The position numbers and the translations under genes are program-made. From contig NZ_AQQX01000002.1 of assembly GCF_000768315.1 (NCBI RefSeq), positions 372,001 through 436,000 on the forward strand: 64,000 bases of DNA, in the 5' to 3' direction. Numbering within the stretch: position 1 is the stretch's first letter; every line of letters starts with the position of its first letter. The stretch is from Pseudooceanicola atlanticus (GTDB lineage Bacteria > Pseudomonadota > Alphaproteobacteria > Rhodobacterales > Rhodobacteraceae). Of the stretch, positions 8,798 to 29,200 are shown piece by piece. The notes below the pieces were generated by a model. It was not told the DNA's origin. It saw only the letters and a list, made by a program, of their open reading frames with translations, and ran no database searches.

Positions 8798-8876
8798 ACC
8801 TACGTTACCTTTCATAACTTCGTGTCGCCGCTTTCTTAGCCCCGACACCTGGGGTCACGCCGTTTTCCTTCGGCTG

Positions 8877-9089
8877 TATACAAATGTACGTGAAAAAAGG
8901 CGGAACTTGGGCAGCGCTCGGACCCGTAAAAGACATTGTTACGAAATCACGAACAATGTGTTCGGAAAGTCACGCTTTCTTCCCCTGCGTCACCTGTCGA
9001 CTATCCCAAAGGTTAGGGGATTCTAAAGGTTGATTACGGAATCCTTTTTTGACGCGCGCAAAACCTCTCAACCTGTATACCTTTGTATA
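8877..9089. promoter_or_regulatory. AT-rich region with three dyads upstream of the small gene
   Basis: The 357-base gap 8798-9154 holds no convincing gene. It contains TATAC-AAAT-GTAC at 8877-8889 and a closely related perfect palindrome TATAC-CTTT-GTATA at 9076-9089. Between them is a third dyad, CGAACA-ATG-TGTTCG, at 8950-8964. The first two look like two sites for one dimeric regulator; the core resembles sites of some GntR-family regulators, but that assignment is a guess. They lie 80-290 bases upstream of the gene starting at 8797. Confidence 0.45.
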
Positions 9090-9154
9090 GGATCGATTCG
9101 GGGTTCGATTCGGAGCCGTCCGGAAATCCCATTTTTTTCAGCAAATCCAGAAAG

Positions 9155-10081: not shown

Positions 10082-10300
10082 GCGGGTCCTCCTCCCCAAG
10101 CATCACGTTGCAGCAAAGGGGAGGCCAACGGGACGGGGCTGTCAATCTTGCCACCTGCAGAGACCTGCCCATTGATATAGCAGATATTTGCCCGGATGTC
10201 GGAAACAGACCCCCCGGGGACGCTGCGGCACATGGCGACGCCATTGCAATGCGACCAGACTGACCGAAGAGTAAGTCAAAAGACGGACCGGAGGTATAAT

Positions 10301-12282: not shown

Positions 12283-12325
12283 CCCGGCACACCGCCCGAA
12301 AGGTGCGCGCCACGGACCAGCCAGG

Positions 12326-12396
12326 CCCCCTTCCGCTTCATCTTGCCGGAAATACTCCGGGGTGAGGCCGCAGGCCGAGGGGCAGAGCCCCTCAAA
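12326..12396 (-). repeat. Dispersed intergenic repeat, copy B
   Basis: On the minus strand it reads GGGGCTCTGCCCC, then GGCCTGCGGCC, then core CCGGAGTATTTCCGGCAAGA and TGAAG. It lies between the convergent 3' ends of the isochorismatase-family gene and the AHSA1-type gene. It is nearly identical to copy F at 39461-39523. Confidence 0.85.
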
Positions 12397-12480
12397 CATC
12401 ATGGATGGAATGCGCGTGAAACGCGCGCCTTTGGATCAGGTCTCCGGATCCCGAAGGCGCGCGGGCAAGGAAGGACCGGC

Positions 12481-12942
12481 TCAGGCGGCGGTCGGCAGGC
12501 GCAGGCAGTCGCTTGCGCCGCTGGTGACGGAGCCGCGCTCAAGAAGGCCCTTTAGATCGGAGAGCATATTGGCGGCGGCACGGGTCGCCTCGGCGACCTC
12601 TTCGGGGTCCGGGGAGGCCCCGAAACCGCATTGGCAGAAATGCACAACCGTGCCGCCTTCCTCGAACCGGTCGAGGGTCAGCATGATCCGGGTGCCGTTC
12701 GACAGCGACAGGCGGATCAGGCAATCGGGGACCAGTTCGTCGCATTCCACGCGCAGCTGCGCGCCCGTCTCGGACATGCGCCAGTAGCAGACGGCACCGG
12801 GCTCGAGCGGGGTTTCCCCGGCGCAATCGGGCCAGAACTCGGCCAGCAGGTCCGGATCGGTGAAGGCTTGGAACACTTCGCGACGAGGCCGGCGGATCGG
12901 CAGCGATACACGGGCAACGGCGACAGGCTTGGCATGGATCAT
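12481..12942 (-). CDS. SRPBCC/AHSA1-type ligand-binding protein
   Basis: A 153-residue protein with the start of an AHSA1 (activator of Hsp90 ATPase-like) START fold: RRPRREVFQAFTDPDLLAEFWPD resembles the usual V-F-x-A-x-T-D-P-x-x-x-x-x-W-x-P pattern. Later beta strands are visible (GAVCYWRM, GTRIMLTLDRFEEGGTVVHFCQCG). The C terminus has a helix (ATRAAANMLSDLKGLLERG), as in other family members. Function is not predictable; these proteins bind small hydrophobic ligands. GGGAGG upstream selects the ATG at 12942. Confidence 0.8.
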   Translation of the reverse strand: MIHAKPVAVARVSLPIRRPRREVFQAFTDPDLLAEFWPDCAGETPLEPGAVCYWRMSETGAQLRVECDELVPDCLIRLSLSNGTRIMLTLDRFEEGGTVVHFCQCGFGASPDPEEVAEATRAAANMLSDLKGLLERGSVTSGASDCLRLPTAA

Positions 12943-13121
12943 GAAGGGTCCCTCCCAGGGTCTGCCGGTCAACGCGCGGGGGATGACACGGTTCCGGCCC
13001 GTGGTCAAAAACAGATCACCTTCGGGGCCGTTCCGCCGATGGACTTGGCAAGAACCCGCGCATAGGGTCAACTGGTATTCAAACGGGGGACCAACCCCGG
13101 ACTTTTCGACAGGAGAGACAG

Positions 13122-14357
13122 ATGGCCCTTTTGCTGCGCTGGACGCCGCAGATCATTCTGATCCTTGCCATTGCCGCCCTCGTTCTGGTGGCGAACCCGA
13201 CCGAAGACCTTCTGACCGTGGGCGCGATCTATGCCGGGCTTCTGGCCTTCGCCTCGATGTCGCTGAACCTGCTGCTGGGCGCCCGCCTGCCGCCGCTGGA
13301 GCGGCTTTTCAACGGCATGGACAAGATGTTCCTGCAGCACCGGCAATTCGGCTACCTGGCGCTGGCCGCCGCGGTGGCGCACTGGCTGTCGCCGCCGTCC
13401 TTCCCACAATTCCTGGCCGCCTGCGACGATGTCTGCAAGACCGCGATCGAGGCCGGCGAGATCGGATTCAACCTTCTGGCCATTCTCGGCATCGCATCGA
13501 TCATCCGGCGCCGGTCCTTCCGTGGGTTCCGCATCCCCTATCACTGGTGGAAGCTGACCCATTACCTGCTGCTGGCCGCCTGGGCGCTGGCCTGTTTCCA
13601 CCTGATGTTCAACCGCAAGATGCCTGCCACCTACCAGGGCCTGGCGGAAACCCTGGGCGTCATCGGCATCCTGTGCCTGATCCTCTACGTTATCGGCTGG
13701 GGTCTGCGCATGGCCCGCACCAAGACCTACCTCGTCGAGGAGGTCAGCACCGGCGGCGGCGTGGTCGGTATCCGCGCCCATCCCAAGGGCAAGGGCATCC
13801 GCCACCGCGCCGGGCAATTCGCCTTCATCCGCGCCAAGAAACCGGGCCTGCGCGAGGCGCATCCCTTCACCATCTCGGGCGGCGAGGATCGCGACGGCGT
13901 GGTGCAGTTCAACATCAAGGGGCTGGGCGATTTCACCAAACGTCTGCATGACGATCTGAAACAGGGCGACGAGCTGATCGTCGAAGGCCCCTATGGCGAT
14001 TTCAGCTATCCCGACCGCGAGGGCAAGCAGGTCTGGGTGGCCGCCGGCATCGGCATCACCCCGTTCCTGTCCTTCGTGCGCTCCATGCCTGACCAGATCC
14101 GCGGCCAGGTCGACATGGTCTACCTGGTGCGCACCCCGGACGAGGCCGTGGGCCTTGCCGAATTCGAAGCCGCCGCGAAACGGGTCGACAATTTCAACTT
14201 CACCCTGCACCCGTCCGAGGAAAAGGGCCGCTGGCCCGGCATCCAGGACAGCACGGGCGACCTGAAGGCGGTGCTGTTCTGCGGCCCGCCGGTGCTGCGC
14301 GATATCCTGAAGGCAAAATACGGCCGGAAGCTGCGGTTCGAGTATTTCGAGTTCTGA
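13122..14357 (+). CDS. Ferric-reductase-like membrane flavocytochrome
   Basis: A 411-residue protein with an N-terminal ferric-reductase-like membrane domain (about 1-205) and a C-terminal ferredoxin-reductase domain (about 210-411). In the membrane part, His73/His87 and His147/His160 are paired at 14- and 13-residue spacing, as expected for two b-type hemes. The flavin domain has HPFTISGG (FAD), GPYGDFSYP, and AAGIGITPFLSF (NAD(P)H), plus the terminal FCGPPVLRDIL. It likely transfers electrons from cytoplasmic NAD(P)H across the inner membrane. The acceptor is unknown. Confidence 0.85.
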   Translation: MALLLRWTPQIILILAIAALVLVANPTEDLLTVGAIYAGLLAFASMSLNLLLGARLPPLERLFNGMDKMFLQHRQFGYLALAAAVAHWLSPPSFPQFLAACDDVCKTAIEAGEIGFNLLAILGIASIIRRRSFRGFRIPYHWWKLTHYLLLAAWALACFHLMFNRKMPATYQGLAETLGVIGILCLILYVIGWGLRMARTKTYLVEEVSTGGGVVGIRAHPKGKGIRHRAGQFAFIRAKKPGLREAHPFTISGGEDRDGVVQFNIKGLGDFTKRLHDDLKQGDELIVEGPYGDFSYPDREGKQVWVAAGIGITPFLSFVRSMPDQIRGQVDMVYLVRTPDEAVGLAEFEAAAKRVDNFNFTLHPSEEKGRWPGIQDSTGDLKAVLFCGPPVLRDILKAKYGRKLRFEYFEF

Positions 14358-14387
14358 TCGGCACATCTGACCGGCACGCCCGGTTGC

Positions 14388-14437
14388 GCCGTCGGATGCC
14401 TCCGGCGGGGATATTTACGGCCAGATGAAAGGGGGGC
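14388..14437 (+). repeat. Dispersed intergenic repeat, copy C
   Basis: GCCTCCGGCGGGGATATTTA followed by CGGCCAGATGAAAGGGGGG. This is the second sequence subtype (GATATTT and GGCCAGATGAA). It lies 31 bases after the flavocytochrome stop, between convergent genes. Confidence 0.8.
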
Positions 14438-14528
14438 GTCGGGAGGACCGGCGCCCCCTGTGCCTGTGACCAGTCTGGCAAGGCATGGCTTGGCGCTGCT
14501 GCGCAATGGCGCGCCGGTGGAGAGCGCG

Positions 14529-14570
14529 GACGCCTCCGGCGGGAGTATTTTGGCAAGGTGAAGCGGGGGC
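14529..14570 (+). repeat. Dispersed intergenic repeat, copy D
   Basis: GCCTCCGGCGGGAGTATTTT followed by GGCAAGGTGAAGCGGGGG, with one change (AGGTGAAG for AGATGAAG) from the main core. With copy C it fills most of the 240-base gap between the flavocytochrome and the M14-like gene. Nothing else is recognisable there. Confidence 0.8.
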
Positions 14571-14597
14571 GGGGCGCCCCTGCCCCAACCGCTGCGG

Positions 14598-15857
14598 TCA
14601 GTACAGTGGGCGCGCGCCGATATAGTTCATCAGCGCGTCGAGGATCGCCTTCTGGGCCTCGACCCGGCCGTGTTCGACCTCGATATTATAGTAATCCCCC
14701 ATCTTGTTCAGCAGCGTGTGGAACGAGAAGGAGCAATCGTTCTTCTGCGGTCGGACATGTTCGTAGATCACGTTGATGCCCAGCGGGCTGAAATGCTGCA
14801 CCAGGCGCTGCGCCTTGGCTTCGCTTTCATAGGGGTTCAAGCCGGCGGTGAGGATCGCGTTGTCCTCGTCCGACAAGCCGCGCTTGGGGTTCGTCGACAT
14901 GAAGCCGCGCATCGTGGCCGAAGACCGCGCTGCAGAGATATGGCCCGAGCCGCCATTGCCCGCATAGCCGTTGTCGTTCGAATGCATCGTCATCACCGGG
15001 AAGCGGCGGTTGAAATGCTTGGAGATCGCCTGGGTGAATTTCGGCGAGGGCTTGGGGCTCATGTCGAGGCAGGGGCCGGTGATGTTCGCCGACTTGCCGA
15101 AATTGCGGTTCGGATCCTGACCCTTGAAGCTGCGCTGTTCGCCGGCTTCGACCGCCACCATGGAGCCGCCGTAACGGGACACGGAATAAAGCCCGGCATC
15201 GAAGGCCGAATCCTCGTTGTCATGGAGCGCCGCCCAGACCGGCCCGCGCTTGCGGCCCTTGTTGGTGACGATCACCAGGTGCCATTGGCGGCCATGTTCG
15301 GTGAACACCTCCTGCGTGATGCAGAGGTCGGGATCGGCGGCGAAGGCCGCCATGTTGCGCGCCACGTCCCGGTCGCGCACGGCGGCGGGATCGGTGCATT
15401 TGCCGCCTGCGACCTCGGTCGGGGTGAGAACCAGCCCCTCGGGCCGGGCACGGGGGCGGATATGGGTGGTCAGCGATGCGACCTGGACCTGTTCGTCCTG
15501 CGGCGCGGGGGGCGGCGTGATGCCCGCAGGCTCTGCCATCGGCTGGTCAGGGTCGGCGCTGGCGGGTTCGTCGCCGATCGTGTCGGCAAGCGCGGTCGGT
15601 TCCGGCACGGGGGCGACCGCCGCGCCGGACGGGCCGCCGAGCGAGGCCGGGCGGCGCGGGAAGAGCGAGGCGCCGGCGCTGTCGCGCGCCTCTGACCCCG
15701 GGGCGGCAGGGGCTGGTTCCGGTGTCGCGGCAGTTTCGGCCAGGGGGCGCGCCTTCGGGCGGATCAGGCCGAGATCCTCGGCCATCAGCGCGGCGGGCAC
15801 CGTCAGGGCGGCCAGCGCAAGAGCCGCGGTCGCGTGGCAGGCAAAGTGGTTCTTCAT
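14598..15857 (-). CDS. Exported M14-like zinc carboxypeptidase/amidase
   Basis: A 419-residue protein: signal peptide 1-26, a proline/alanine-rich low-complexity linker to about 145, then a catalytic domain. Several features match the M14 scaffold: HDNE (His212, Glu215) as the H-x-x-E zinc motif, DPNRNF (Asn250-Arg251) as the substrate-carboxylate contact, MTMHSND (His292) as the third ligand, and a glutamate in NIEVEHGR as the candidate general base. The assignment is by motif only. The substrate may be a peptide, including a peptidoglycan stem peptide. It is last in the caspase operon, 25 bases after the second caspase gene. RPKARP and RPRARP recur in the linker. Confidence 0.65.
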   Translation of the reverse strand: MKNHFACHATAALALAALTVPAALMAEDLGLIRPKARPLAETAATPEPAPAAPGSEARDSAGASLFPRRPASLGGPSGAAVAPVPEPTALADTIGDEPASADPDQPMAEPAGITPPPAPQDEQVQVASLTTHIRPRARPEGLVLTPTEVAGGKCTDPAAVRDRDVARNMAAFAADPDLCITQEVFTEHGRQWHLVIVTNKGRKRGPVWAALHDNEDSAFDAGLYSVSRYGGSMVAVEAGEQRSFKGQDPNRNFGKSANITGPCLDMSPKPSPKFTQAISKHFNRRFPVMTMHSNDNGYAGNGGSGHISAARSSATMRGFMSTNPKRGLSDEDNAILTAGLNPYESEAKAQRLVQHFSPLGINVIYEHVRPQKNDCSFSFHTLLNKMGDYYNIEVEHGRVEAQKAILDALMNYIGARPLY

Positions 15858-15882
15858 AGTCGTCCTGTCCTGTACCGGGCGG

Positions 15883-18426
15883 TTACAGCTGAAGCTTGAA
15901 ATAGCCGTTTCCGCAATAGCCCGAATACATTCGCGCATTATTAAGCGGACCTTCGATCGAGAAGGCGGTCTTGGAGCTGGGCGAGAGGCCGGAGCGGTCG
16001 ATCCGGACAAAGCCGTTGCTGTCCACCGAGCCGGAGAAGGTGCGCCCATCGGACCAGAAGCGGATCGTGCCGTTATTGATCTCGGCGGTGAAGTTGTAGC
16101 GGCCCAGGCATTCCTTGTTCGGCGACCGGCGCCCGCCATCGGTATAGCCGCGCCAGCCCGACCAGGACCCGTTGAACCGCGCCGCCGGATGCGCCTGCGG
16201 CACCGGTGTGGGCGTCGGTGTCGGGGAGCTGTTGGTGGCGCCGTAGGCCGCCAGTTCGGCCTGCACCTCGGTCAGGTATTCCTCGGCATCGGCGCGGCCG
16301 GGCGCGGACATGGAGGCGCGGCCCAGATAGGAGGTCAGGCAGCTTTCGCTTTCCTCGAGCCGGCGGCGCGGGGACAGCTGCCGTTCCGCATCGTCGAGAC
16401 AGCCCAGCAGCGTGTCGTAGGCGGCAGAGGTGCTGCCCAGGCTGGTGCCGCTGGAGCTGACGGTGGACAATTTAGCATCGGCGGGGCCGTAATTCAGGTT
16501 CTTGGCCCGTTCGTACCATTGCTGCGCCTTCTTGACGTTCGGCACGCCATGGGCGCCTTCTTCCCAGGCTTCGCCGATCTGGAAGGCGACCTGCCCCTCG
16601 TTCCACTTGTTGAAGACGAGATCGTAGAGGTCATCGGGCGGCATCCGGCCCTGCCGGCCTTCGGGGATGGTGCGGGCATGGTCCAGCAGGTCGCGCGGGT
16701 TGCGCTCGATCTGGACGATCCGGCGATAGGCATCGGTGGCGAGATGGGCCGAGCCGAGCTCGTCATAGAGCGACGCGATATTGTAGAGGCTCTTGACCAT
16801 GTCGGGGGCCGAGATGTTCTGCATCTTGGTGGCCCGTTCGTACCAGGTGAGCGCCTGGTTCAGGTCGCGGGTCAGGAAGCCCGCGTCGTCGGCGGAGTAA
16901 TAGTCACCCAGGCGGATCGCGGCCTTGGGGTAATCCGAGATCGCGGCGGAGGACAGCAATTCGACCGCCTGCTGCCAGTCGCTGTCACGGCCGGTGGCCA
17001 GCAGCAACTCGGCCCGCTTGAAGCCCAGCTCGTAATCGGTGGGGCGCGCGTTGGAGGCCGCCTTGCAGCTTTCGGTGGCGCGGGTCAGGTCGTTCTCGGG
17101 GATCTGGGTGCCGAAGGTGATGTTGCGATAGACGCTTTCGCAGACGCCGATGTGGTGGGCCAGTTCGGCGGGCGAGAGGACCTTGCACAGCTCTGCCTCT
17201 TTCTCCTGTGCCTTGGCGGCGTGGGCGGAGCTGGGGAAGTTGCGCAGGTAGGTTCGGTAGGCGTTGCAGCTGTCGGTGGCGACGGTGCTGTCCCAGTTCA
17301 CGGTGGCGATACGCGCGTCGATGGCACCGCGCAGGGCAGCGCACTGGAAATAGGTGTCGCGTTCACGGCGCAGCTGCGCCAGGTCGGTGATGCCCGACAG
17401 GGTGCCGCGGATGGGGGCGGCTTCGCAGAAGGCCGCCGAGGCCTCGGACGAGGAGGCGGAGATCTGTTGCAGCCCTTCGCGCCCGGTGCAGCGCGGCGCG
17501 CCGTTCACCACCACGGTCGACAGGCAGAATTCGTTGTGATCGGAGCGGGAATAATCCAGCTCGTCCTCGAAGACGGGATGCTGGCGGTGGCCGCCTGCCT
17601 TTTCGCGGGCCAGCTGCGAGACCTCGGATTGCACGACGGCGTGCAGGTCCGACAGGCGCATCGTCGGGTTTTCGGCCAGCTTCGACACCAGCACGCGGGT
17701 ATAGACCGACAGGTTGGCATCCTTTTCGCTGTTCAGCGAGGCCAGCGAGGTCTGGCCGGGGCGTGCGGAATAGAACATCGCGGTGCCCTGGATCTTGGCC
17801 GGAACGAAGGACGCGGCAGAGCCCACGGATTTGGTGCTGTCATCGCCGCCCAGCGGAGAGTTCCGGCAGGCATCGTAGAAGACGACAACGCCCTTGGGAC
17901 CGGCGAACTTGATGACCTCGAGCACCTCTTCGTTGAAGTTGAGCGAGCGGTCCTTGAAGATCCGTTCCTTCAGCTCGCGGGCAGAGCCGGGCACGACCGG
18001 GTCGAGGTCGACCGGCACGATGTAATTGTTGTTGTCCGACGGGAACGAGATCCCGTGGCCGGAATAATAGATGACGACAGAGCTGTCCGAGGTCAGCTTG
18101 CCTGCGAATTCGTAGACCGCGTTCTTGGCCGCCGATTTGCTGGCGTTTTCGACCAGGGTGATGTTGCCGGAGGGATAGCCCATCCCTTCCAGCAGCTTGC
18201 GCACGGCCTTGGCGTCGTTTTCGGTCACCGGCAGGTCCGAGATGCCTTCGTGCTCGTATTGCGAGTTGTACATGATGAGCGCGTAATTGTCCTGGCTCAG
18301 CTCCCGGGACACGGCGCCGGTCACCGTGACTTCGGAGAAGTTCTTGAACAGGACTTTCTGGGCCATGGCCGGGACGGCCGACAGCGCCAGGAGCATTGCG
18401 AGGGCGAGCGTGCGAATTGCGGTCAT
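15883..18426 (-). CDS. Exported caspase-like (C14) protein with helical repeats
   Basis: An 847-residue protein: signal peptide 1-22 (ending AMAQ), caspase-like domain about 35-310, a Cys-containing helical region about 330-720 with Sel1/TPR-like units (LGDYYSADDAG...LTWYERATK; AQQWYERAKNLNYG), a Pro/Thr linker, and a C-terminal beta domain about 748-847. The catalytic dyad is intact: His124 in YYSGHGISF and Cys187 in FYDACRNSP. The mature protein would begin KVLFKNFSEV. The caspase domain is roughly 80% identical to that of the next upstream gene, with no length change. It is third in the operon. Whether it is an Arg/Lys-specific protease, as other bacterial caspase relatives are, is inferred. 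Confidence 0.85.
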   Translation of the reverse strand: MTAIRTLALAMLLALSAVPAMAQKVLFKNFSEVTVTGAVSRELSQDNYALIMYNSQYEHEGISDLPVTENDAKAVRKLLEGMGYPSGNITLVENASKSAAKNAVYEFAGKLTSDSSVVIYYSGHGISFPSDNNNYIVPVDLDPVVPGSARELKERIFKDRSLNFNEEVLEVIKFAGPKGVVVFYDACRNSPLGGDDSTKSVGSAASFVPAKIQGTAMFYSARPGQTSLASLNSEKDANLSVYTRVLVSKLAENPTMRLSDLHAVVQSEVSQLAREKAGGHRQHPVFEDELDYSRSDHNEFCLSTVVVNGAPRCTGREGLQQISASSSEASAAFCEAAPIRGTLSGITDLAQLRRERDTYFQCAALRGAIDARIATVNWDSTVATDSCNAYRTYLRNFPSSAHAAKAQEKEAELCKVLSPAELAHHIGVCESVYRNITFGTQIPENDLTRATESCKAASNARPTDYELGFKRAELLLATGRDSDWQQAVELLSSAAISDYPKAAIRLGDYYSADDAGFLTRDLNQALTWYERATKMQNISAPDMVKSLYNIASLYDELGSAHLATDAYRRIVQIERNPRDLLDHARTIPEGRQGRMPPDDLYDLVFNKWNEGQVAFQIGEAWEEGAHGVPNVKKAQQWYERAKNLNYGPADAKLSTVSSSGTSLGSTSAAYDTLLGCLDDAERQLSPRRRLEESESCLTSYLGRASMSAPGRADAEEYLTEVQAELAAYGATNSSPTPTPTPVPQAHPAARFNGSWSGWRGYTDGGRRSPNKECLGRYNFTAEINNGTIRFWSDGRTFSGSVDSNGFVRIDRSGLSPSSKTAFSIEGPLNNARMYSGYCGNGYFKLQL

Positions 18427-18452
18427 CTTCTGTCTTCTCCGGGCGGAGGCCG

Positions 18453-20765
18453 TCAGAACGGCTTCTCGCCCCATTGGTTTGCAAGGTATTGGCCATAGGC
18501 CCAGCCGATCGTGCCGGTGGAATGTTCCACCGTGCACCAGCGCATTTTCCAGCCCTTCACCTTCTGGCAGTCGCGGACGCGGATATTGGTGGCGTCCGGG
18601 GCCAGTTCGCCGACGATCGGGAAGGTCGTGCCGGGGCCGGAGCGCACGTTGAGCAGGGAATCGCGGGGGTGGTCGACGACGCGGTAGATGCCTGCCAGGG
18701 CGCCATCGGGGTTCGATCCGCCACGGCCCAGGTAATTGCCGAAGGCCCAGCCCGAGGTGCAGCCGTACTGGACCCGGCACCAGCCGTTGGACTGGCAGTT
18801 GGCCACCGACACGCCGGTGGCGTTGAAGGACATGGCGCCCAGGATACTGGCCGAGGATTGCGGCGCGCTGCGCACGTTCAGCCAGTCGCCGGTGGACACC
18901 CCCTGCACCTTCCAGGCGCCGTTGGTCGGCGGGCAGGACGCGTAGCTGCTGCGCAGTGACGAGGACGGGCGCGAGGCGGCGCGCTGCGCGATCGTCTCAA
19001 GCTCGGAAATGCGTTCCTGCATAACGCGGCTGTGGCAGAAGGTGTTGCTGCCGCAGGCATCGCGCTTGAACACGCGCCAGTCGCGCTGTTCGCCCGCGGT
19101 GACATTGTTTCCGGCCTGTCTGAACGCGACGTTGAGCCGGTCGTCGAGGCGGCCAAGCTCGTAATGGTCGCAGATCGTGCGTTCGGCGAGGTTCAGGCTG
19201 GCCGAGCCGCGGCACCAGGACGGCTGGTAGAGCGACTGCATCCGCGCCAGGTGGTTGCGCACGGCAGAGGCATGTTCGCCGTTGGGATAGAGGTTCAGGT
19301 AGTTCTCGTAAGGCGCCTGCTGGTCGGACCGCTGGGCGTCTTCGTAAGTCTGCTGGGCGCGGGCGCGTTCGGCATCGACGGCAACGTTTTCCAGTTGCGC
19401 GATCCGGGCCTCGGCCAGGGCGCGGAATTTTCCATCGGGGTACTGGGTGATGTAGAGGCGGATCATCTCTGCATCATCCATGTCCTTGACGGAATTCCAG
19501 AACGCGGCCTCGGCGGCGGTTTCGCTGGAGGCCTGGGCGGCCTTTTGCAGGCGTTCGATGCGCAGGCGGGCGATCGGGGCGAAGGCGCCGTTGGGATAGA
19601 GGTCGAGGTAGCTTTGCACCTCGCGCGCATCCTGGCTGTTCATCACCGATTCCCAGTAGAGCCGTTCGGTATCCGCCTTGCCGCCCGCCACGACACCCGC
19701 CGTGCCGAGATTGGTGCCGCTTTCGCTGGCGGCGGCGTTCTGGACCACGGCCCCGCCGGTTTCGGTGCCGCCGACCAGGATCTCGTCCCGGCCGGTGCAA
19801 CGGGCGACACCGTTCACGGCAACGGTGGCCAGGCAGAATTCGTTATGGTCGGAGCGGGAATAATCCAGCTCGTCCTCGAAGACGGGATGCTGGCGGTGGC
19901 CACTGGCCTTTTCGCGGGCCAGCTTGGACACGTCCGATTGCACGACGGCGTGCAGGTCCGACAGGCGCATCGTCGGGTTTTCGGCCAGTTTCGACACCAG
20001 AACGCGGGTATAGACCGACAGGTTGGCATCGGCTTCGCTGTCGAGCGAGGCCAGAGAGGTCTGGCCGGGGCGCGCGGAATAGAACATCGCGGTGCCCTGG
20101 ATCTTGGCCGGCACGAAAGAAGCAACGTCGCCCACAGCCTTGGTGCTGTCGTCGCTGGCGATCGGAGAGTTCCGGCAGGCATCGTAGAAGACGACAACGC
20201 CCTTGGGACCGGCCAGCTTGATCGTGCCCAGCACATCCTCGTTGAAGCTGACGGAGCGGTCCTTGAAGATGCGTTCGCGCAGCTGCCGCGCCCCGCCGGG
20301 CACCGCCGGGTCGAGGTCCACCGGGACGATGTAATTGTGGCTGTCGCCCTGGAAGGAAATCCCGTGGCCGGAATAGTAGATGACGACGGTGCTGTCCTTG
20401 TCGAGCTTCGCGGTGAAGTCGAACACCGCCCGCTTCATCGCCGACTGGCCGGCATTTTCCACCAGCGTGATATTGGCGGAAGGGTAGCCCATCCCTTCGA
20501 ACAGCCGCTTGACCGCCTTCGCATCGTTGGCCGTCACCGGCAGGTCGGAAATGCCGGGATGGTCATATTCCGAATTGTACATGATGAGCGCGTGGGAATT
20601 CGCGCTTGCCGCCGCACTGACCGCGCCGGTGACCTGCACCTCGGAGAAGTTCTTGAACAGGACCTGCGCCGAAGCCGCCCCCGGAAGGACGGCTGGCAGG
20701 GCCAGGGCCAGAGACAAGGACAGGGCGAATGGCAGCGCCCGGAACATCTTGCGCAGACGGGTCAT
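18453..20765 (-). CDS. Exported caspase-like (C14) protein with LprI and two SH3 domains
   Basis: A 770-residue protein: signal peptide 1-33; caspase-like domain about 45-320 with His134 (YYSGHGISF) and Cys197 (FYDACRNSP). Three repeats of about 37 residues centred on Y-P-x-G-x-x-x-x-x-A-x-x-R/H-x-x-x-x follow (about 369-510). Next comes an LprI-like domain (about 513-590; CRGSASLNLAERTICDH, WRVFKRDACG), then two SH3b domains (about 620-680 and 695-760; WLNVRSAPQS, LLNVRSGPG). SH3b and LprI domains suggest contact with the cell wall. It is second in the operon, 67 bases after the cytochrome gene and 26 before the next caspase. The ATG at 20765 gives a good signal peptide. Confidence 0.87.
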   Translation of the reverse strand: MTRLRKMFRALPFALSLSLALALPAVLPGAASAQVLFKNFSEVQVTGAVSAAASANSHALIMYNSEYDHPGISDLPVTANDAKAVKRLFEGMGYPSANITLVENAGQSAMKRAVFDFTAKLDKDSTVVIYYSGHGISFQGDSHNYIVPVDLDPAVPGGARQLRERIFKDRSVSFNEDVLGTIKLAGPKGVVVFYDACRNSPIASDDSTKAVGDVASFVPAKIQGTAMFYSARPGQTSLASLDSEADANLSVYTRVLVSKLAENPTMRLSDLHAVVQSDVSKLAREKASGHRQHPVFEDELDYSRSDHNEFCLATVAVNGVARCTGRDEILVGGTETGGAVVQNAAASESGTNLGTAGVVAGGKADTERLYWESVMNSQDAREVQSYLDLYPNGAFAPIARLRIERLQKAAQASSETAAEAAFWNSVKDMDDAEMIRLYITQYPDGKFRALAEARIAQLENVAVDAERARAQQTYEDAQRSDQQAPYENYLNLYPNGEHASAVRNHLARMQSLYQPSWCRGSASLNLAERTICDHYELGRLDDRLNVAFRQAGNNVTAGEQRDWRVFKRDACGSNTFCHSRVMQERISELETIAQRAASRPSSSLRSSYASCPPTNGAWKVQGVSTGDWLNVRSAPQSSASILGAMSFNATGVSVANCQSNGWCRVQYGCTSGWAFGNYLGRGGSNPDGALAGIYRVVDHPRDSLLNVRSGPGTTFPIVGELAPDATNIRVRDCQKVKGWKMRWCTVEHSTGTIGWAYGQYLANQWGEKPF

Positions 20766-20832
20766 GGCGCGGCTCTCCTCATTCGCTCATCCCCTGTCAT
20801 GTGCACCGGGCCTGTCATATGCTCCGGGCCCC

Positions 20833-23800
20833 TCACTTGCACTGGCCGTTGGCATCGAGCGCCGACCGGTCCTCGGAGATCGAGAAGCGCACCGTCGAGG
20901 TGATCGGCGCCTGCGGATCGGTGGCGACCTGGGTCGGGTTCTGGTTCTGCTGGAACGTCTCTTCGGTGACGGTGGACACCACTTCGGAGAAGTTCTTGGT
21001 CTGGCCCCGGCTGGATTGGTATTCCTCCAGCGTCTTCAGCAGATCGCGGCCCAGCTGGTCATAGCTGGTCAGGCCCGGATAGCAGTTGATCGCGATATCC
21101 ACGCCCGAGGTCGGGGTGTGCGACTGCAATTCGCGGCCCGGCTGCGGGATCTGGCGGACTTCGCCCGGTTGCAGGATCGGGTTGCCGATCGCGGCCGGCG
21201 ACAGGCGGAAGAACGTGCCGGCGCGGGTGTCGGGATAGATCACGTCAAGCAGGCAGGCCCGGTCGGTGGACACGGTGAACCGCGCGCCTTCGCAGACCTT
21301 GAGGTCGGATTTCTCGACCCGGACGGTCAGGCCGTGGCGTTGCGGCTGGGTCGCGCCCGGTGTCACCTCGACCGTGCGCTGCTGCGGGACGTGAACCGGG
21401 GCCGAGACGGGGGCCGGCACATGGCTGGCAACCGGGGCGCTGGCCGCGACATGGGTCGGCTGGTAGCTGACCTGCTGCACGTGCTGACCGGCGGTGGTGT
21501 GGTCGCGCGGCGTCGTCAGGTAGAGCGCGGCCGCCACGATCTGGTAGCTTTCCTCGACCTCGTAACGTTCCACCAGCCCACGGCCGTCGATATCGGCGAA
21601 CCAGGAATAGAGCCGGTCCTTGGCCGCCGAGAAGGGCAGCGTGCGGGCGCGGTCCTGCAATTCCTCGTAGGTCAGGCCGAATTCGGCCGCCAGCAGGTCC
21701 TTGTCGAGCTCGTCGAAATACTTGGCGACGGTGTTGGTGACCGGTTCGTGGTGATAGCGGCCGGGGCCTTCCATCACGGTATAGTCACCGCCCGCCGCGG
21801 CCAGCGCGTCGAGATAACGGTTGGTGTCTTCGGCATAGGCCTTTTGCAGGTCTTCGTCATCGGCATAGATCTCGCGCACCTTTTCCAGGGTCACGCGGTC
21901 GGTGCCGGTGGATTCGACCGATTCCTTGATCTGGTCATAGCCTTCGATGGGGCCGTTCAGGTGACAGGTCATGCAGGCCGACCCGTTGGAAATCGTGGCG
22001 CCGGAGACCGGGCTTTCGCCCTTGAAGAACACCACGGAGGTTGGGCCATCGGGGATGAAATTGCCCGGACCGTCCGTCAGGTAATACCCCTGCATGCCGT
22101 TGGGCAGGGAGAAGATCATCTCTCCGCCATCGCCTTCGAAGACCTGCTGATGCGCGGGGAAGGCCTCTTCGGGGCCCAGCGGGCTTTGCTTGAGGCGCTT
22201 GGAGGCGTCGATGGCGCGGTCGAAATCGTAGGAGATCCAGTAGTAGCCACCGGTCGGTTGCACCATGCGTTCGATCAGGCGGTTGTTCTGCGACACGCCG
22301 GAGCCACCTTCGAGGAACCCGGCGCGCATCACGTCGCCATCCTGGATTTCCTTGATCCGATCGACCCGCATCAGGTGACGTTCGAAATCGTGCAGGTTGT
22401 CGGGCAGGTTCAGCATGAACTTGTAGTAGAACGGTTCCCCGGCCACGGCGACGAACCAGTCGCCGCGCATGATCGGCACGGTGGTGCCGGTGATCCGCGC
22501 GATCTGGGTCAGGTTCTCGTTCCGCTCGGCGCCGAAGGGATCAAGGCCGTAGGGATAGGGCAGCGCCTCGTCCTCGCCCGGGATCTCGCCCGAGATCAGC
22601 GCCTCCCACTGGCGGGGGGTCCAGCCGTAATCGCGGATGTCGATGGCGTAGATGCCCATGCCGTCCGAAATCGGTTCGACCTGCTTGATCCGCGGCTCCC
22701 ACGACATGGAGTTCACCAGCTTGTTCAGACCGGCAAGGTAGCCCGCCATGTGCTGTTCGAAGAAATCGTCCATCGACTGGCAGGGCAGCAGGCCGTTCTG
22801 CAGGTGGCGGAAGCTGAAGTAGCGCATGAAGGGCCGCTTGCTGTCGTCCTGCTGCACCAGGTGTTCCTGCACGGCGCGGTACTGGTCGTCGAAGGCCATG
22901 TGCATGCGGCTGTCGTCGCGCGGCGGCTCCTTCTTCTCGGCGGTCAGGAATTCCTTGTCGACGGCGAGGCCGGCAATCCAGTCCTCGACCAGCTTCTTGT
23001 CGGCGTCGGAGGCCGAGTTGCCCGGCGGCATCGTGTTCAGCGACCGGTAAAGCGCGGAGGTCGACGGATCGCCCGGCGTCACCAGAGAGGTGTCGGACGC
23101 CACGCGCGAGGCGGAGGCCAGCACGGCCTTGGACGCGGCAGAGGCGCCGCGGACGTGGCAGGATTTGCACTGGGCCGAGAAGAAGCTGTCGACCGCTGCC
23201 GTCAGCTCGGGCGCGGGTTCGGAAACGGGCGAGCGGGGCGCCTCGCAGGACATTTCGACCACCGGCTTGGGCAGTTCCTTGAGGTCGGCCAGGTATTGGT
23301 AAACAGCGGTCTGGTCGCTTTCGGGCGCCTGGGCCAGCTGGGCCGAGACACGCTGCATCGTACCCTTGACCGGGGTCGACCCGTCAAGGCCCGTGCCCGC
23401 CGCCAGCATGTCGGTGAACCCGTCGGGACCGAGGCCCGACACGGCGGATTTGGAGATATCGCCGGCCACCTCGCCCAGCGGGCTGATACCGCCCTTGTGG
23501 GTCTGGCTGTCCTCGAGGATGAAGGCCGAATTGCGGGGTGTGTGGCAGGCGCCACAGGCCGCGACGCTTTCCGTCAGATACTTGCCCCAGGCGATCGGGT
23601 CGTTTTCGTTGTCGCCCGCACCGTCATAGGCGGCCGGTTCGAAGCTGAAGCGCCAGGGGTTCTTGCCGAAGATGCGCCGGGTCAGCAGCATGGAATGCTT
23701 TTCCGAGGCGCGGTCGGATTTCGGCGCGCTCTGCTTGATGTATTCGAACAGGTCGACGACGTGTTCGGGCTTCATCTTGGCGTAGAATTCGTAGGGAAAC

Positions 23801-24156
23801 AGAGGGGTATAGCTGCCGCCATCGGGCGAGGTGCCGTGCAGCATCGCGTTCAGGAAATCGCCGCGCGACCAGTCACCGATCCCGGCCGAGGACCCGGTGA
23901 TGTTGGGCACACGAACGATGCCGAAGGTGGGGCTGTCGATCTCCATCCCGCCGCCGAGCAGCGGGGCCGAGGCATCGAGCGCCGTTCCCTTCTCCTGATG
24001 GCAGGACGCGCATGAACCGACATGAAACAGCCGCTCGCCACGGGCGAGGTTCGGCGAATAGCTGGTGAAGCTGCTGTCGTCGAAGGCCTGGGCGATCGCC
24101 GGGCCCCCGGCAACAAAGGAAAACGCGGCAGCAGCAGCAAAGAGCAAATGTTTCAT
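20833..24156 (-). CDS. Tetraheme c-type cytochrome with C-terminal DUF4384-like domain
   Basis: A 1107-residue exported protein, first gene of the operon. Signal peptide 1-22. Four C-x-x-C-H motifs: CASCH (49-53), CGACH (201-205), CKSCH (330-334) and CMTCH (728-732). The first two sit in a diheme region like alcohol-dehydrogenase or thiosulfate-dehydrogenase cytochromes; the third is in a short PSCyt-like unit (LNTMPPGN). The large middle region (about 400-880) around the fourth heme is not recognised. A Pro/Val/His-rich linker leads to a DUF4384-like domain (about 942-1050), a family often fused to bacterial caspases. KNFSEV at 1054-1059 repeats a segment found at the mature N terminus of both caspases. 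ATG 24156 was chosen for its clean signal peptide. Confidence 0.8.
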   Translation of the reverse strand: MKHLLFAAAAAFSFVAGGPAIAQAFDDSSFTSYSPNLARGERLFHVGSCASCHQEKGTALDASAPLLGGGMEIDSPTFGIVRVPNITGSSAGIGDWSRGDFLNAMLHGTSPDGGSYTPLFPYEFYAKMKPEHVVDLFEYIKQSAPKSDRASEKHSMLLTRRIFGKNPWRFSFEPAAYDGAGDNENDPIAWGKYLTESVAACGACHTPRNSAFILEDSQTHKGGISPLGEVAGDISKSAVSGLGPDGFTDMLAAGTGLDGSTPVKGTMQRVSAQLAQAPESDQTAVYQYLADLKELPKPVVEMSCEAPRSPVSEPAPELTAAVDSFFSAQCKSCHVRGASAASKAVLASASRVASDTSLVTPGDPSTSALYRSLNTMPPGNSASDADKKLVEDWIAGLAVDKEFLTAEKKEPPRDDSRMHMAFDDQYRAVQEHLVQQDDSKRPFMRYFSFRHLQNGLLPCQSMDDFFEQHMAGYLAGLNKLVNSMSWEPRIKQVEPISDGMGIYAIDIRDYGWTPRQWEALISGEIPGEDEALPYPYGLDPFGAERNENLTQIARITGTTVPIMRGDWFVAVAGEPFYYKFMLNLPDNLHDFERHLMRVDRIKEIQDGDVMRAGFLEGGSGVSQNNRLIERMVQPTGGYYWISYDFDRAIDASKRLKQSPLGPEEAFPAHQQVFEGDGGEMIFSLPNGMQGYYLTDGPGNFIPDGPTSVVFFKGESPVSGATISNGSACMTCHLNGPIEGYDQIKESVESTGTDRVTLEKVREIYADDEDLQKAYAEDTNRYLDALAAAGGDYTVMEGPGRYHHEPVTNTVAKYFDELDKDLLAAEFGLTYEELQDRARTLPFSAAKDRLYSWFADIDGRGLVERYEVEESYQIVAAALYLTTPRDHTTAGQHVQQVSYQPTHVAASAPVASHVPAPVSAPVHVPQQRTVEVTPGATQPQRHGLTVRVEKSDLKVCEGARFTVSTDRACLLDVIYPDTRAGTFFRLSPAAIGNPILQPGEVRQIPQPGRELQSHTPTSGVDIAINCYPGLTSYDQLGRDLLKTLEEYQSSRGQTKNFSEVVSTVTEETFQQNQNPTQVATDPQAPITSTVRFSISEDRSALDANGQCK

Positions 24157-24264: not shown

Positions 24265-24397
24265 TGTTGGCGGGGGCCGCCGCCGATCACGGCAAATTGC
24301 TGCGACTTCGGCGCCGGGACGGCGAATCCGCTGGAACTCACCCCTTGGTGTATTACCCTTGTCATCAGCGAACACTTTTTCCGGGACTTTCTGGCCA

Positions 24398-26197
24398 ATG
24401 CCTTTTTCCTTCCGCGCTGCGCTGCACGGACCCACACTGGCCGGTATCCTCGCTCTCAGCCTCGGTTTGACGCCCACATGGGCGGCCGAGGTGGTCGTGC
24501 GGGTGCCGGGTGCCGAGGATCTGGCGGACGGGGTGCGCGGCGCGTCCCTGTCCCAGACCGCCGTCGACGAGGGACGTACTGCCCCGCAAGACCTGATCGC
24601 TGCCGCCCGTGCCGATTACCGGCGCGTTCTGGCCGCGCTGTATGAACAGGGCTATTTCGACGCCGAGGTGAATATCCGTGTCGACGGGCGCGAGGCGGCC
24701 AACCTGTCCGCGCTGAACGCCCCCACGCAGGTCGGCCAGATCGAGATCGCGGTGATCCCCGGCCCCCGATTCGCCTTTGGCCGGGCCGAGGTGACCCCCC
24801 TGCCCCAGGGCGTACGCCCGATCGAAGGATTTGCCACCGGCGCGCCGGCGGGCACAGCGATCATGCGCGACGCGGCCAATGGCGGCGTGAATGCCTGGCG
24901 CAATGTCGGCCATGCCAAGGCCGAGGTCGCCAGCCAGGATATCGTCGCCGATCACGCGGCCAACACCGTGTCGGCCCGGTTCGGGATCGCCCCCGGCCCG
25001 CGCCTGACCTTCGGCCGCGCCCGCGTATCGCCCGACAGTGCCGACAGCGCCGTGCGCCCCGACCGGATCCGCGCCATCGCGGGCGTGCCCGAGGGCCGTA
25101 CATATTCGCCCGAGGAAATCACCCGGGCCGAGCGCCGCCTGCGCCGCACCGGGGCCTTCCGCGCCGCCAACATCACCGAGGACGAGGCAATCGGGCCCGG
25201 GAACACCCTGGGCACCGAGATCTCGGTCGAGGATGCCAAGCCGCGCCGCTTTGGCGTGGGGGCCGAGATTTCCACGGTCGAGGGGCTGCGCCTGTCCGGG
25301 TTCTGGCTGCATCGCAACGCCTTTGGCGGAGCCGAACGGCTGCGCTTTGACGCGGAGGTCGCCGGGATCGGGGGCCAGACCGGCGGCATCGACTACAGCC
25401 TTGGCGCGACCCTGACGCGGCCCGCCTTCCGCCACCCCGATGCGCAGCTGAGCTATGGTGTCCTGCTGGAACGCGAGGACGAACCGACCTACCTGAGCGA
25501 TCGGTTCCACATCTTCGCCGGCGTCGAGCGGATCCTCGACGACAAGACCACCGTGACCGGGGAAATCGGGTTCCGCGCCGCGCGCACCAAGGACCCGTTC
25601 GGCACCCGCAATTTCCGCCATGTCCTGCTGAATGCCGGCGGGGTCTGGGACAATCGCGACAGCACGACGAACCCGACCACGGGCGCCTATGTCGAGATCG
25701 ACCTGATGCCCTTCATCGGGGTCAGCGGATCGGCCAGCGGCGTGCGGGCCACCACCGATGTGCGGGGCTACCTGCCGCTGGGCGACAGTGTCGTTCTGGC
25801 CGGGCGGACGCAGCTGGGATCGCTGATGGGTGCCTCCATCGCGTCGACCCCGCCGGATTTCCTGTTCTTCTCGGGCGGTGGCGGCACGGTGCGCGGCCAG
25901 GGCTACCAATCGCTGGGCGTGGGCACCGGACCGGGCCGCACCGGCGGGCGCAGCTTTGCCGCGCTGTCGGCTGAACTGCGCACGGATATCACGGACAAGA
26001 TCGGAGCCGTCGCCTTTGTCGATTACGGCTACGTCGCCGCCAGCAGCACCTTTGACGGTGGGCAATGGCATGGCGGTGCCGGGCTGGGCATCCGTTACCA
26101 GACCGGGCTGGGCCCGATCCGCGCCGACATCGCGATGCCGGTGACGGGGGGTGGCAACTCGGTGAACCTTTATGTCGGAATTGGACAATCGTTTTGA
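24398..26197 (+). CDS. tamA: Translocation and assembly module protein TamA (Omp85 family)
   Basis: A 599-residue outer-membrane protein: signal peptide ending TWAAE, POTRA-like repeats in the first half (DYRRVLAALYEQGYFDAEVNI; ITRAERRLRRTGAFRAANI), and a C-terminal beta-barrel with the Omp85 signature GGGGTVRGQGYQSLG and terminal phenylalanine (VGIGQSF). The start was set at 24398, which gives the best signal peptide; a TTG 39 bases upstream is possible. The gene overlaps or touches tamB. TamA with TamB helps insert autotransporters and moves phospholipid to the outer membrane. Confidence 0.92.
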   Translation: MPFSFRAALHGPTLAGILALSLGLTPTWAAEVVVRVPGAEDLADGVRGASLSQTAVDEGRTAPQDLIAAARADYRRVLAALYEQGYFDAEVNIRVDGREAANLSALNAPTQVGQIEIAVIPGPRFAFGRAEVTPLPQGVRPIEGFATGAPAGTAIMRDAANGGVNAWRNVGHAKAEVASQDIVADHAANTVSARFGIAPGPRLTFGRARVSPDSADSAVRPDRIRAIAGVPEGRTYSPEEITRAERRLRRTGAFRAANITEDEAIGPGNTLGTEISVEDAKPRRFGVGAEISTVEGLRLSGFWLHRNAFGGAERLRFDAEVAGIGGQTGGIDYSLGATLTRPAFRHPDAQLSYGVLLEREDEPTYLSDRFHIFAGVERILDDKTTVTGEIGFRAARTKDPFGTRNFRHVLLNAGGVWDNRDSTTNPTTGAYVEIDLMPFIGVSGSASGVRATTDVRGYLPLGDSVVLAGRTQLGSLMGASIASTPPDFLFFSGGGGTVRGQGYQSLGVGTGPGRTGGRSFAALSAELRTDITDKIGAVAFVDYGYVAASSTFDGGQWHGGAGLGIRYQTGLGPIRADIAMPVTGGGNSVNLYVGIGQSF

Positions 26198-26211
26198 CCG
26201 GACTGCCCCGC

Positions 26212-29200
26212 ATGCTGGCCCGCCTTCTTTCCCGATTTCTGCTGTGCCTGACCCTGGTCGCCCTGCCCGTCACCGCCTGGTCGCAGGATGACGATGGCGA
26301 GGGCTACCTGACCCGCCTGTTGCAGGACACCCTGTCCCAGGCCGGGCGATCGGTCGACATCACCGGCTTCCGCGGCGCGCTGTCGTCGCGGGCGACGCTG
26401 GACAGCCTGACCATCGCCGATGACGAGGGCGTCTGGCTGGAGATGACCGGCGCGGTGCTGGAATGGAACCGCTCTGCCCTGTTGCGCGGGCGGCTGGACG
26501 TGACGGAATTGTCGGCGGAAACGCTGGTGATCTCGCGCCTGCCGGCGGGCGATGACAGCGCCGATACCGAAGCGTCTGGCTTTGCCATCCCGGACCTGCC
26601 CGTGTCGATCGACGTGGAGCGTCTGGCCATCGGGCGGCTGGTCCTGGCGGAACCGGTGATCGGCGAGGCGGCGGAGTTCACCTTCGACGGCGCCGTGGCG
26701 CTGGATGACAGCCTGAACGCCGCACTGTCGCTGAACCGGCTGGACCGCGCGGGCCAGATCGGGGTCAACGTCGCGCTGGCCCCCGAGGCGAACACGCTGA
26801 CGCTGGATATCACCGCCGAAGAACCCGAGAACGGCATCGCCGCGACCCTGCTGGATCTGCCCGGCCGCCCGGCGCTGAATCTGTCGGTCAAGGGCGACGG
26901 CCCGCTGGACGATTTCACCGCCGATGTGCTGCTGGCCTCTGACGGGGTGGAGCGACTGGCCGGCCAGGTCACCCTACGTGGCCAGAGCGACGGGGCGCAG
27001 GCCTTTGCCGCCGATATCGGGGGCGACCTGACGGCGCTGCTGCTGCCGCAGGCCCGCGACTTCCTGGGGGATGACGTGCAGCTGGTGGTCGAGGGCGAAA
27101 GCGGCGCTGACGGATCGCTGACCCTGGACGCGCTGTCGGTGCGCGCGGCGGCGGTGCGGCTGAACGGGTCGCTGGCGCTTGGTCCCGATGGCCGGCCCGA
27201 CCGCTTCGACCTGAGCGGCGATATCGCCGATCCCGAGGGCGAGCCGGTCACCCTGCCCTTCGGCGACGCGATCCGCCTGCAGGAGGCCACGATCAGCGCC
27301 CGGTTCGACGCCGCCGAAAGCGATGGCGTATCGGCCGAGGTCCTGATGACCGGTTTCGCGCAGCCCGGCCTTGCGCTGGAACGTGCGCGCCTTGGCATCA
27401 GCGGCGATATCGTGACCGAGGGCACGCCGTCCGTCGATATTCGCCTGCAATCGGATCTGGGCGGCCTGACGGTCGACGATCCGGGCCTGCAGGAGGCGCT
27501 CGGCACCGAGGTGACGGCCAGCGCCCAAGTCGATTGGATCAGCGGCGGAGAGGTCAATCTGCGCGACCTGAACCTTGAGGGCAGCAATTACAACGCGCAG
27601 ATGGATGCGACCCTGACCCCGGGTGGCGGCACCTCGATCCTGACGGCGGCCGGGCGCGCGGCCTTCGAGGATCTGTCGCGGCTGGCGCAGCTGTCGGGGC
27701 TGGACCTGTCGGGCAGCGCCGATCTGGGCTTCGACGTGTCGATGGACCTGCTGGGCGGGTCTTTTGCCGTCAGCGCAGAGGGCGGCACCACCGACCTCGC
27801 CCTCGGGATCGAGGCGCTGGACCCGGTGCTGGGCGGCGATGCGCGGCTGGCCGTGGCGGCAAGCCGGGGGCCCAACGGCATCACGCTGGACCAGTTCGAC
27901 CTGACCAATGGCCAGATCGGGCTGGAGGCAAGCGGCGCGGTCTCGGATACCGGCGGACGGTTCGATTATGCCGCGCGGCTGGCCAATTCCGGCGCCTTCA
28001 CCGGCACCAGCGGCGGGCCGCTGGCGCTGGAAGGCGTGGTGCTGATCCAGGACGACGAAACCCAGGTCACGCTGGATGGCGGCGGGTCCGACCTGCGCGT
28101 GGGCATCGAGCAGGTGGACCGGCTGCTGGCCGGGGAGACAACCCTGTCGGCCGAGCTGAACCTGGGCCAGCGGATGGAACTGACCCGCGCCGAGATCGCC
28201 ACGGATGCCTTCAGCGCGCAGGCCAGCGGCGACCTGACCGCCGGGCAGCGCGACGTGGCCCTGCGGCTGCGCCTGCCCGATAGCGGCGTCGTTCTCGACG
28301 GCGGCGGCGGTCCGCTGGACGCGGTGATCAACGCCGTGCAGGACGGTGAGGCCTACCTGCTGGACCTGACCGCGACGGGGCAGAATATCGGCACCGGGAT
28401 CGACCAGGTCGACGCCCTGCTGGCCGGTCAGACCGACGTGACCGCCAAGGCCCGGCTGCTGGGGTCCGACCTGTTCCTGGAAAGCGCCGATATCAGCAAC
28501 GCCGCGCTGCGCGCGCAGGCGGACGGCCTGATCTCGGCCGCGCTGATCGAGCTGGATTTCAACGCCCGGCTGAACCGTCTGCGCGATGTGGTGGCCCAGG
28601 CCCCCGCGCAGCCCTTGACCGCCACCGGCATGGTGCGCCGCAGTGACGGTGCGCTGACGCTGGATGTCGATATCGAAGGCGCCGGGATCACCGCCAGCGC
28701 CGAGGGCGTGGTGGCCGATGGACGAACCGATGTTGGCTTTGACGCGCGTGTCGCCGATCTGCGCAGCTATGTGCCGCAGGCGCCCGCGGGTCCGGTCACC
28801 GCGACCGGCAGCCTGCAACAGGCGGGTGGCGCGCTGTCGCTGGACGTGGACGTTTTGGGCTCCGGCCTGTCGGCGCAGGCCGATGGCACCGTGGCGGGCG
28901 GGCGCACCGACGTGACCTTCAACGCGCGCGTCGCCGACCTCAGCCGCTTTGTCCCGCAGGCCCCGGCCGGCACGCTTTCGGCCCGCGGCACGGTGCGGCA
29001 GGAAAACGGGCAACTGGCGCTGAACATCGACGCCGACGGCGCGGGCGGCACGGCGGCGCAAGTGTCGGGCCGCGTAGGCCTGCCGGGCGGCGCGGTCGAT
29101 CTGGACATCACCGGGACCGCACCGCTGGCGCTGGCCAACCCCTATATCGCGCCGCAGGCCGTGACCGGGCAGGCCAGCTTTGATCTGTCGATGAACGGCC

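Follow-up and report, generated by a model that had tools for sequence, protein, structure and literature searches.

What could bring exported caspase-like proteases and a multihaem cytochrome together in one bacterial locus? The question is raised by a 64,000-nucleotide stretch of Pseudooceanicola atlanticus (Rhodobacteraceae; NCBI RefSeq assembly GCF_000768315.1, contig NZ_AQQX01000002.1, positions 372,001 to 436,000 of the forward strand), hereafter the window, whose own numbering is used below. As a preliminary description of the sequence had it, four minus-strand genes lie between positions 14598 and 24156 with gaps of 67, 26 and 25 bases. They encode a tetrahaem c-type cytochrome, two proteins with a caspase-type Peptidase_C14 (C14) domain and an M14-like putative zinc hydrolase. 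Judging from strand, spacing and conservation, the four genes probably form an operon; a sigma-70 promoter scan of it returned no site. The same description proposed that redox state and proteolysis are coupled here. This coupling is supported as gene organisation, but the redox side was incomplete, as a nearby gene for a NOX-like flavocytochrome b (13122-14357, plus strand) had not been listed. We consider it probable, on comparison of related loci, that the locus is a variant of a conserved envelope system in which exported proteases are coupled to electron transfer across the membrane.

A conserved cluster around the cytochrome gene

The cytochrome carries four haem-binding motifs, numbered I to IV, and loci for comparison were chosen by searching with its haem IV domain or its haem III-IV region; caspases played no part in the choice. 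From named genomes we kept the best 80 of 206 relatives by haem III-IV region score, with weaker relatives outside the set. All 80 loci are alphaproteobacterial, judged from names, and include Rhodobacteraceae, Rhizobium, Shinella, Ensifer, Hoeflea and Roseibium (L and G numbers below designate loci and genomes). Neighbouring genes were typed for seven families with iterated local profiles seeded from the same kind of loci, and these profiles were cross-checked by Pfam on selected proteins and by the public annotation of one record. Loci ending at contig ends were left inside the denominators.

In 77 of the 80 loci, the gene directly upstream of the cytochrome gene, and on its strand, is that of the flavocytochrome; in the other three, the cytochrome open reading frame (ORF) starts within 70 bases of a contig end. 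An OmpA-domain gene is found in the stretch at 79/80 loci and within 3 kb at 75/80. C14 genes are present in 74/80 loci, in 72 on the cytochrome's strand, with two in 56 loci and up to four; counted by ORF, 156 of 163 share that strand. The commonest gene order is flavocytochrome, cytochrome, OmpA-domain gene, then caspases. Six loci have no C14 gene. Three of these (L077, L092 and L091) carry a gene with a CHAT domain, divergent in L077 and L092. Two others (L036 and L097) have stretches that end at contig ends, and the partial neighbour in L097, which resembles the N-terminal part of the L073 C14 protein (54% over 161 residues), is likely a caspase. The sixth, L053, is considered further below. 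In L099, a C14 gene is accompanied by a CHAT-like protein beside the cytochrome (12145-16416, plus strand), identified as CHAT by the local profile only. Flanking ORF families are shared among up to 37 loci. One cluster, L113, sits on the 917 kb Neorhizobium petrolearium plasmid NZ_CP123001.1, typed as non-mobilizable, where the public annotation reads, in order, caspase family, OmpA family, ferredoxin reductase family and c-type cytochrome. A plasmid search gave one record at E<=1e-5.

We also sampled the order, finding the haem IV domain in 8 of 292 genomes and the haem III-IV region in 14 of 390. The named and order samples overlap, as three of the 80 named loci (L027, L044 and L032) apparently duplicate the records of L014, L015 and L149. 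In samples of the class (289 genomes) and the phylum (299 genomes), the convincing carriers were the window genome (G000) and G002 only, both members of the family; the two remaining matches in each sample span merely the cytochrome-c-like part. Genome sampling was confined to Pseudomonadota, and we presume that similar sequences occur in Planctomycetes.

Could unrelated cytochrome and caspase genes simply have become neighbours in a gene-dense region? The order is rich in caspase genes, C14 genes being present in 149 of 292 genomes and numbering 1-7 in each among the genomes listed. A rough estimate nevertheless places a random caspase within 20 kb about 1 time in 100, order and strand are conserved over the named loci, and the cluster includes a peptidase gene in all 14 carriers of the order sample. 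We rejected chance association for the core on the basis of the conserved order and the 14/14 sample, and its probability for the locus is almost negligible; for the M14-like gene alone it is a possible explanation.

The redox proteins

The flavocytochrome b of the window (411 residues; 13122-14357, plus strand) comprises Ferric_reduct, flavin adenine dinucleotide (FAD)-binding and NAD-binding domains. Its predicted haem-ligand histidines, H73, H87, H147 and H160, form the HX13H and HX12H pairs that are intact in 81/81 flavocytochromes and have the spacing of human NOX2 (PMC3591440). The FAD and NADPH motifs, HPFTI and GIGITP in the window, are retained in 80/81 and 81/81 flavocytochromes, and this motif set is the one used to find bacterial NOX in a 2017 survey in mBio (PMC5676040). 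The protein therefore shares its NOX2-spaced histidines and both motifs with the NADPH oxidase/ferric reductase superfamily, including SpNOX. What sets flavocytochromes of the window type apart is a neighbouring gene for a dedicated multihaem cytochrome c, and the acceptor then need not be oxygen. SpNOX is reported to reduce cytochrome c directly, with no oxygen involved (PMC5676040), and this precedent makes a transfer from flavocytochrome to cytochrome c chemically plausible.

The window genome holds one full-length flavocytochrome match of this type. Its gene lies outside the interval of the four operon genes and is convergent with them, an arrangement that the sister genome G207 shares (L013). 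In G855, a third member of the genus, the haem III-IV query found nothing. A close relative of the flavocytochrome occurs in G855 and G875 on very similar plasmid-like segments (L152 and L153) from two genera, beside genes that we take to be PepSY and ApbE genes.

The cytochrome (1107 residues, putatively exported; 20833-24156, minus strand) is built of a module with haems I and II, a haem III domain, a haem IV domain and a DUF4384/immunoglobulin-like (Ig-like) tail. Its haem-binding motifs are CASCH (I, residues 49-53; 23998-24012), CGACH (II, residues 201-205; 23542-23556), CKSCH (III, residues 330-334; 23155-23169) and CMTCH (IV, residues 728-732; 21961-21975), all on the minus strand. The Cys and His of motifs III and IV are invariant in a 39-row alignment, and all 78 full-length cytochromes among the 80 loci have four CxxCH motifs. 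The N-terminal module (residues ~37-293) matches 7w2j_C by phmmer (E 2.3e-24) and aligns structurally with 8jej_C (Z 21.5, root-mean-square deviation (rmsd) 3.0, 244 residues); against four complete dehydrogenase cytochrome chains, Z ranges from 20.1 to 21.5 over 244-258 residues. This part of the protein thus has a fold homologous to the cytochrome subunits of membrane-bound alcohol, fructose and aldehyde dehydrogenases. Unlike these subunits, the window cytochrome adds the large haem IV domain and the Ig/DUF4384-like tail, and its conserved partners are a flavocytochrome and peptidases. No dehydrogenase subunit is found among the annotated genes of L113, neighbours elsewhere having been typed for the seven families only.

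The tail is Ig-like in structure comparison (Z 6-7), a common arrangement. In the preliminary description this protein was a tetrahaem cytochrome with a DUF4384-like tail; the four haem motifs hold, but the match of the window tail to PF14326 (DUF4384; E 0.099) falls below the curated cut-off. At a loose E<=0.1, 15/15 relatives scanned match the model, the best at 2e-8.

The haem IV domain (residues 408-884; 21505-22935, minus strand) serves as the marker of the system. AlphaFold2 (AF2) predicts its fold confidently, with a local distance difference test score (pLDDT) of 83.7 and a template modelling score (pTM) of 0.85. Among solved structures it found no match, with a best Foldseek hit to the PDB at E 0.53 and a best Z of 3.6 in a VIA search (rmsd 4.6, 102 residues), a result on a predicted model that does not prove a new fold. 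On the haem III-IV region, Pfam returned cytochrome-type models and scattered weak single hits only, with no family dedicated to the haem IV domain among them.

The size of the haem IV domain and its many invariant residues would fit an enzyme. The cytochrome might then be a terminal oxidoreductase, acting on metals, peroxides or oxidised envelope proteins, with the proteases processing or clearing its damaged substrates, much like a quality control of the envelope. MsrQ of the FRD family feeds periplasmic MsrP by an analogous electron logic. The variable identity of the peptidase, described below, is as expected of an accessory role, and FRD family enzymes are reported to reduce extracellular acceptors (PMC3591440). 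However, a peptidase in the cluster of every sampled carrier is a strong association for an accessory, and we regard this explanation as unlikely.

Exported peptidases and their exchange

Caspase 1 (770 residues; 18453-20765, minus strand) and caspase 2 (847 residues; 15883-18426, minus strand) match Peptidase_C14 with E 1.1e-25 and 1.9e-25 (91.1 and 90.3 bits; Pfam cut-off 21.4). Both retain the His-Cys dyad claimed for them, with predicted catalytic residues His134 (YYSGHG; 20364-20366) and Cys197 (DACR; 20175-20177) in caspase 1 and His124 (YYSGHG; 18055-18057) and Cys187 (DACR; 17866-17868) in caspase 2, all on the minus strand. Across the 80 loci, the catalytic His and Cys are kept by pattern in 153/158 full-length C14 proteins. 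The architectures first proposed were largely right: caspase 2 combines its C14 domain with Sel1/TPR-type repeats, and caspase 1 has two SH3_3 stretches by Pfam, but its LprI-like segment (PF07007, E 0.0014, 19.4 bits) stays short of the cut-off of 22. The C-terminal domain of caspase 2 has no Pfam match and is common to a protein of L114 (E 2e-18, 36% over 95 residues).

The N-termini of all four window proteins look like Sec signal peptides when judged by eye, in agreement with the preliminary description. In relatives we applied a hydrophobicity rule, a crude test of export, which found a hydrophobic stretch <=45 residues before the domain in 154/158 C14 proteins against 13/159 control stretches after it; 4/4 CHAT proteins also have a hydrophobic stretch near the N-terminus. 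The accompanying statement that bacterial caspases are mostly cytoplasmic is not established: a survey classed 98 of 671 metacaspases as membrane proteins, most with an N-terminal helix that may be a signal peptide, and placed only 7 intracellularly (Asplund-Samuelsson et al., 2012; PMC3501461).

Further caspases were seen in passing. The window genome encodes a second exported-looking C14 protein on another contig (1366 residues, E 3e-17; G000:C11, L020 3934-8031, plus strand) and, ~75 kb away on the same contig, a weak partial C14 match (E 2e-4; G000:C12:470191-470472, L004). The caspase at L014 14504-16978 (plus strand) has a long C-terminal repeat that resembles, by eye, a right-handed beta-helix. 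At L015 13740-17249 (plus strand), two exported-looking proteins with SPGG/SAC motifs, presumably ClpP-like, stand between caspase genes, the second with PAN domains.

The order sample shows that the peptidase can be exchanged. Of its 14 carriers, six have long forms of the cytochrome with C14 neighbours and eight have short dihaem forms, without haems I-II and with a trypsin-like protease. All eight short forms lie between the trypsin-like protease gene and an OmpA-domain gene, and the stretch covered (shorter in L146, where it ends at a contig end) contains neither a caspase nor a flavocytochrome gene. Pfam confirmed the trypsin identity for L018, L019 and L148, and a signal-like N-terminal stretch is present in 7/8 of the proteins. 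Five of six trypsin-type proteins compared share C-terminal LprI/SH3-type tails with window caspase 1 (best E 2e-19 to 3e-9); for the sixth, L019, E is 0.005. Together with the CHAT genes of L077, L092 and L091, these loci indicate that the peptidase head swaps around a constant cytochrome domain and constant tail modules. Cysteine-type peptidases go along with the flavocytochrome and haems I-II, and the serine type with the absence of both; this correlation is suggestive, but it may reflect a single evolutionary event.

CHAT, like C14, is a cysteine peptidase, and this correlation would fit a maintenance role, in which the chain keeps the catalytic cysteines of exported caspases and CHAT proteins reduced in the oxidising periplasm and conveys no signal. 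C14 or CHAT accompanies the flavocytochrome and the tetrahaem form in every uncut long-form locus except L053, all eight trypsin-type loci have the dihaem form with no flavocytochrome in the stretch covered, and the first three short-form genomes gave flavocytochrome matches to the FAD/NAD part only, or none. However, the short forms are closely related (over the region, the other seven share 64-82% identity with the query) and so may count as one event. Five further short-form genomes yielded two weaker full-length homologues (24-25% identity), one close flavocytochrome (G875, where it is located elsewhere) and two partial matches. A maintenance role also leaves unexplained why a serine-type protease retains haems III-IV. 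We give it a low probability.

Exchange of a caspase for a trypsin has a parallel in cytoplasmic conflict systems, where the one effector excludes the other (Kaur et al., 2020; PMC7159879), and a periplasmic sensor could unleash lethal or antiviral proteolysis upon infection, competitor attack or envelope damage. The patchy distribution in the order samples (8/292 and 14/390) would suit such a role, and the PADLOC caspase model matches the window caspases weakly (E 9e-8 and 5e-6). However, there is no other PADLOC match of note among the four window proteins, and the shared flanking families suggest a stable chromosomal position in the loci that have them. This explanation appears quite improbable. 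Membership of a known defence family was rejected, the search having returned only these weak caspase matches, for four proteins, and a chance-level CARF match.

From electron supply to proteolysis

In the system that we favour, the flavocytochrome b would oxidise NAD(P)H in the cytosol and carry the electrons across the membrane by way of FAD and its two b haems. On the periplasmic side, the tetrahaem cytochrome c would receive them via its dehydrogenase-cytochrome-related module and relay them to haems III-IV, the latter in the domain for which no described relative was found. The exported peptidases, caspases in the window, would be the output; DUF4384-like and SH3 domains, and OmpA-like domains at other loci, would keep them close to the cytochrome or the cell wall. 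Most likely, the redox state of haems III-IV would gate or serve the peptidases, and envelope proteolysis would then track electron supply or envelope oxidation. Observed are the arrangement of the genes and its conservation, undamaged haem, flavin and catalytic motifs, N-termini that resemble export signals, and the exchange of the peptidase. What we infer is which way the electrons run, whether the proteins touch, are tethered or are gated, and what the system is for, candidate purposes being quality control, signalling, regulated lysis and conflict.

Several points weigh against this reading. The reading assumes haem ligation, electron flow and gating. In the window and L013, the flavocytochrome gene is convergent with the four genes and thus is not co-transcribed with them, and the OmpA-domain gene that most relatives have was not found at either locus. 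Similar flavocytochromes beside PepSY/ApbE-like genes, with no caspase, point to a generic partner, and the trypsin-type loci show that the haem IV domain can accompany a protease with no flavocytochrome adjacent. At L053, from Hoeflea, the core has no C14, CHAT or trypsin-type match within ~10 kb; its genome has one C14 gene elsewhere. No signal stretch was recognised in the trypsin-type protein of L145. Tail sharing between cytochrome and caspase is weak, with an hhalign probability of 23%, and the DUF4384 matches of 15/15 cytochromes and 11/19 caspases are obtained at the loose E<=0.1 only.

A bolder version of the favoured reading is possible but doubtful. The NOX-like flavocytochrome and the cytochrome c would directly gate exported caspases, with the output swapped between caspase, CHAT and trypsin around one haem sensor domain. 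The cluster would then be an extracytoplasmic, independently assembled counterpart of redox/cytochrome-c caspase activation, possibly leading to regulated lysis. Any likeness to animal apoptosis, as drawn earlier for this locus, would be convergence or shared chemistry; descent is not claimed.

The window caspases share the C14 domain and the His-Cys dyad with the orthocaspases, for which TPR and DUF4384 partners are likewise reported (PMC6426788). Unlike the orthocaspases described there, they are export-like and belong to a conserved cluster with what would be a transmembrane/periplasmic electron chain. That 2019 survey in Frontiers counts 3,826 alphaproteobacterial caspase homologues and describes DUF4384 and trypsin combinations within one protein. 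The conflict systems of Kaur et al. (2020; PMC7159879) show the same mutually exclusive caspase/trypsin outputs around a constant core, but are described as nucleoside triphosphate (NTP)-dependent, while what is conserved here is a set of redox proteins that look exported or membrane-bound. Their System 4, the two-gene EACC1-caspase system, places a caspase at the membrane, as here. An EACC1-type caspase was rejected for the window: the two caspases reach 46.1 and 46.9 bits with the NCBIfam model caspase_w_EACC1, whose cut-off is 140, the EACC1 gene itself not having been searched for. Asplund-Samuelsson et al. (2012; PMC3501461) treat metacaspase operons, and the word cytochrome is absent from their main text. 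In the literature searched, mostly open-access and including the available text of PMC7475262, PMC4550343 and PMC8238504, we found no description of the cluster.

As far as we searched, then, the parts come from known families and the combination is a new kind of system, known from gene organisation only. Caspase homologues occur widely in prokaryotes, with few roles assigned to them, and the cluster offers them a set of partners: an electron donor, a candidate haem sensor and a protease output. It brings a NOX-like enzyme, cytochrome c and caspases together in bacteria; were the coupling true, this would be, within the same search, the first redox-driven exported protease system.

The fourth operon gene stands apart from this core. 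It encodes a putatively exported M14-like zinc hydrolase (419 residues; 14598-15857, minus strand), a label that rests on motifs. The M14 hallmark is an HxxE...H zinc motif with an Asn-Arg pair, and H212xxE215, N250R251 and H292 are invariant in 3/3 sequences, but no M14 match was found in Pfam or among PDB sequences. Co-occurrence of all four families, proposed earlier as a check, is seen for the cytochrome-caspase pair (C14 in 74/80 loci) but not for this gene, which is present in 3/292 genomes. We rejected it as a core component on that count; its distribution marks it as a local, lineage-specific addition. In G170, the third carrier, its neighbours include an exported trypsin (PF00089, E 1.7e-52) and a protein with an HEAAH motif, and no CxxCH or caspase motif occurs among the ORFs listed around it (L114). 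The window operon thus seems to combine the redox-caspase core and a portion of a second exported-hydrolase cluster.

The L114 stretch at 7530-10692 (plus strand) encodes, together, the exported trypsin-like protease, the HEAAH protein as a putative metallopeptidase, the protein with the C-terminal domain of caspase 2 and the M14-like protein. On the other side of the window operon, at 24359-30387 (plus strand), lie divergent neighbours that we take to be a TamA/TamB outer-membrane pair.

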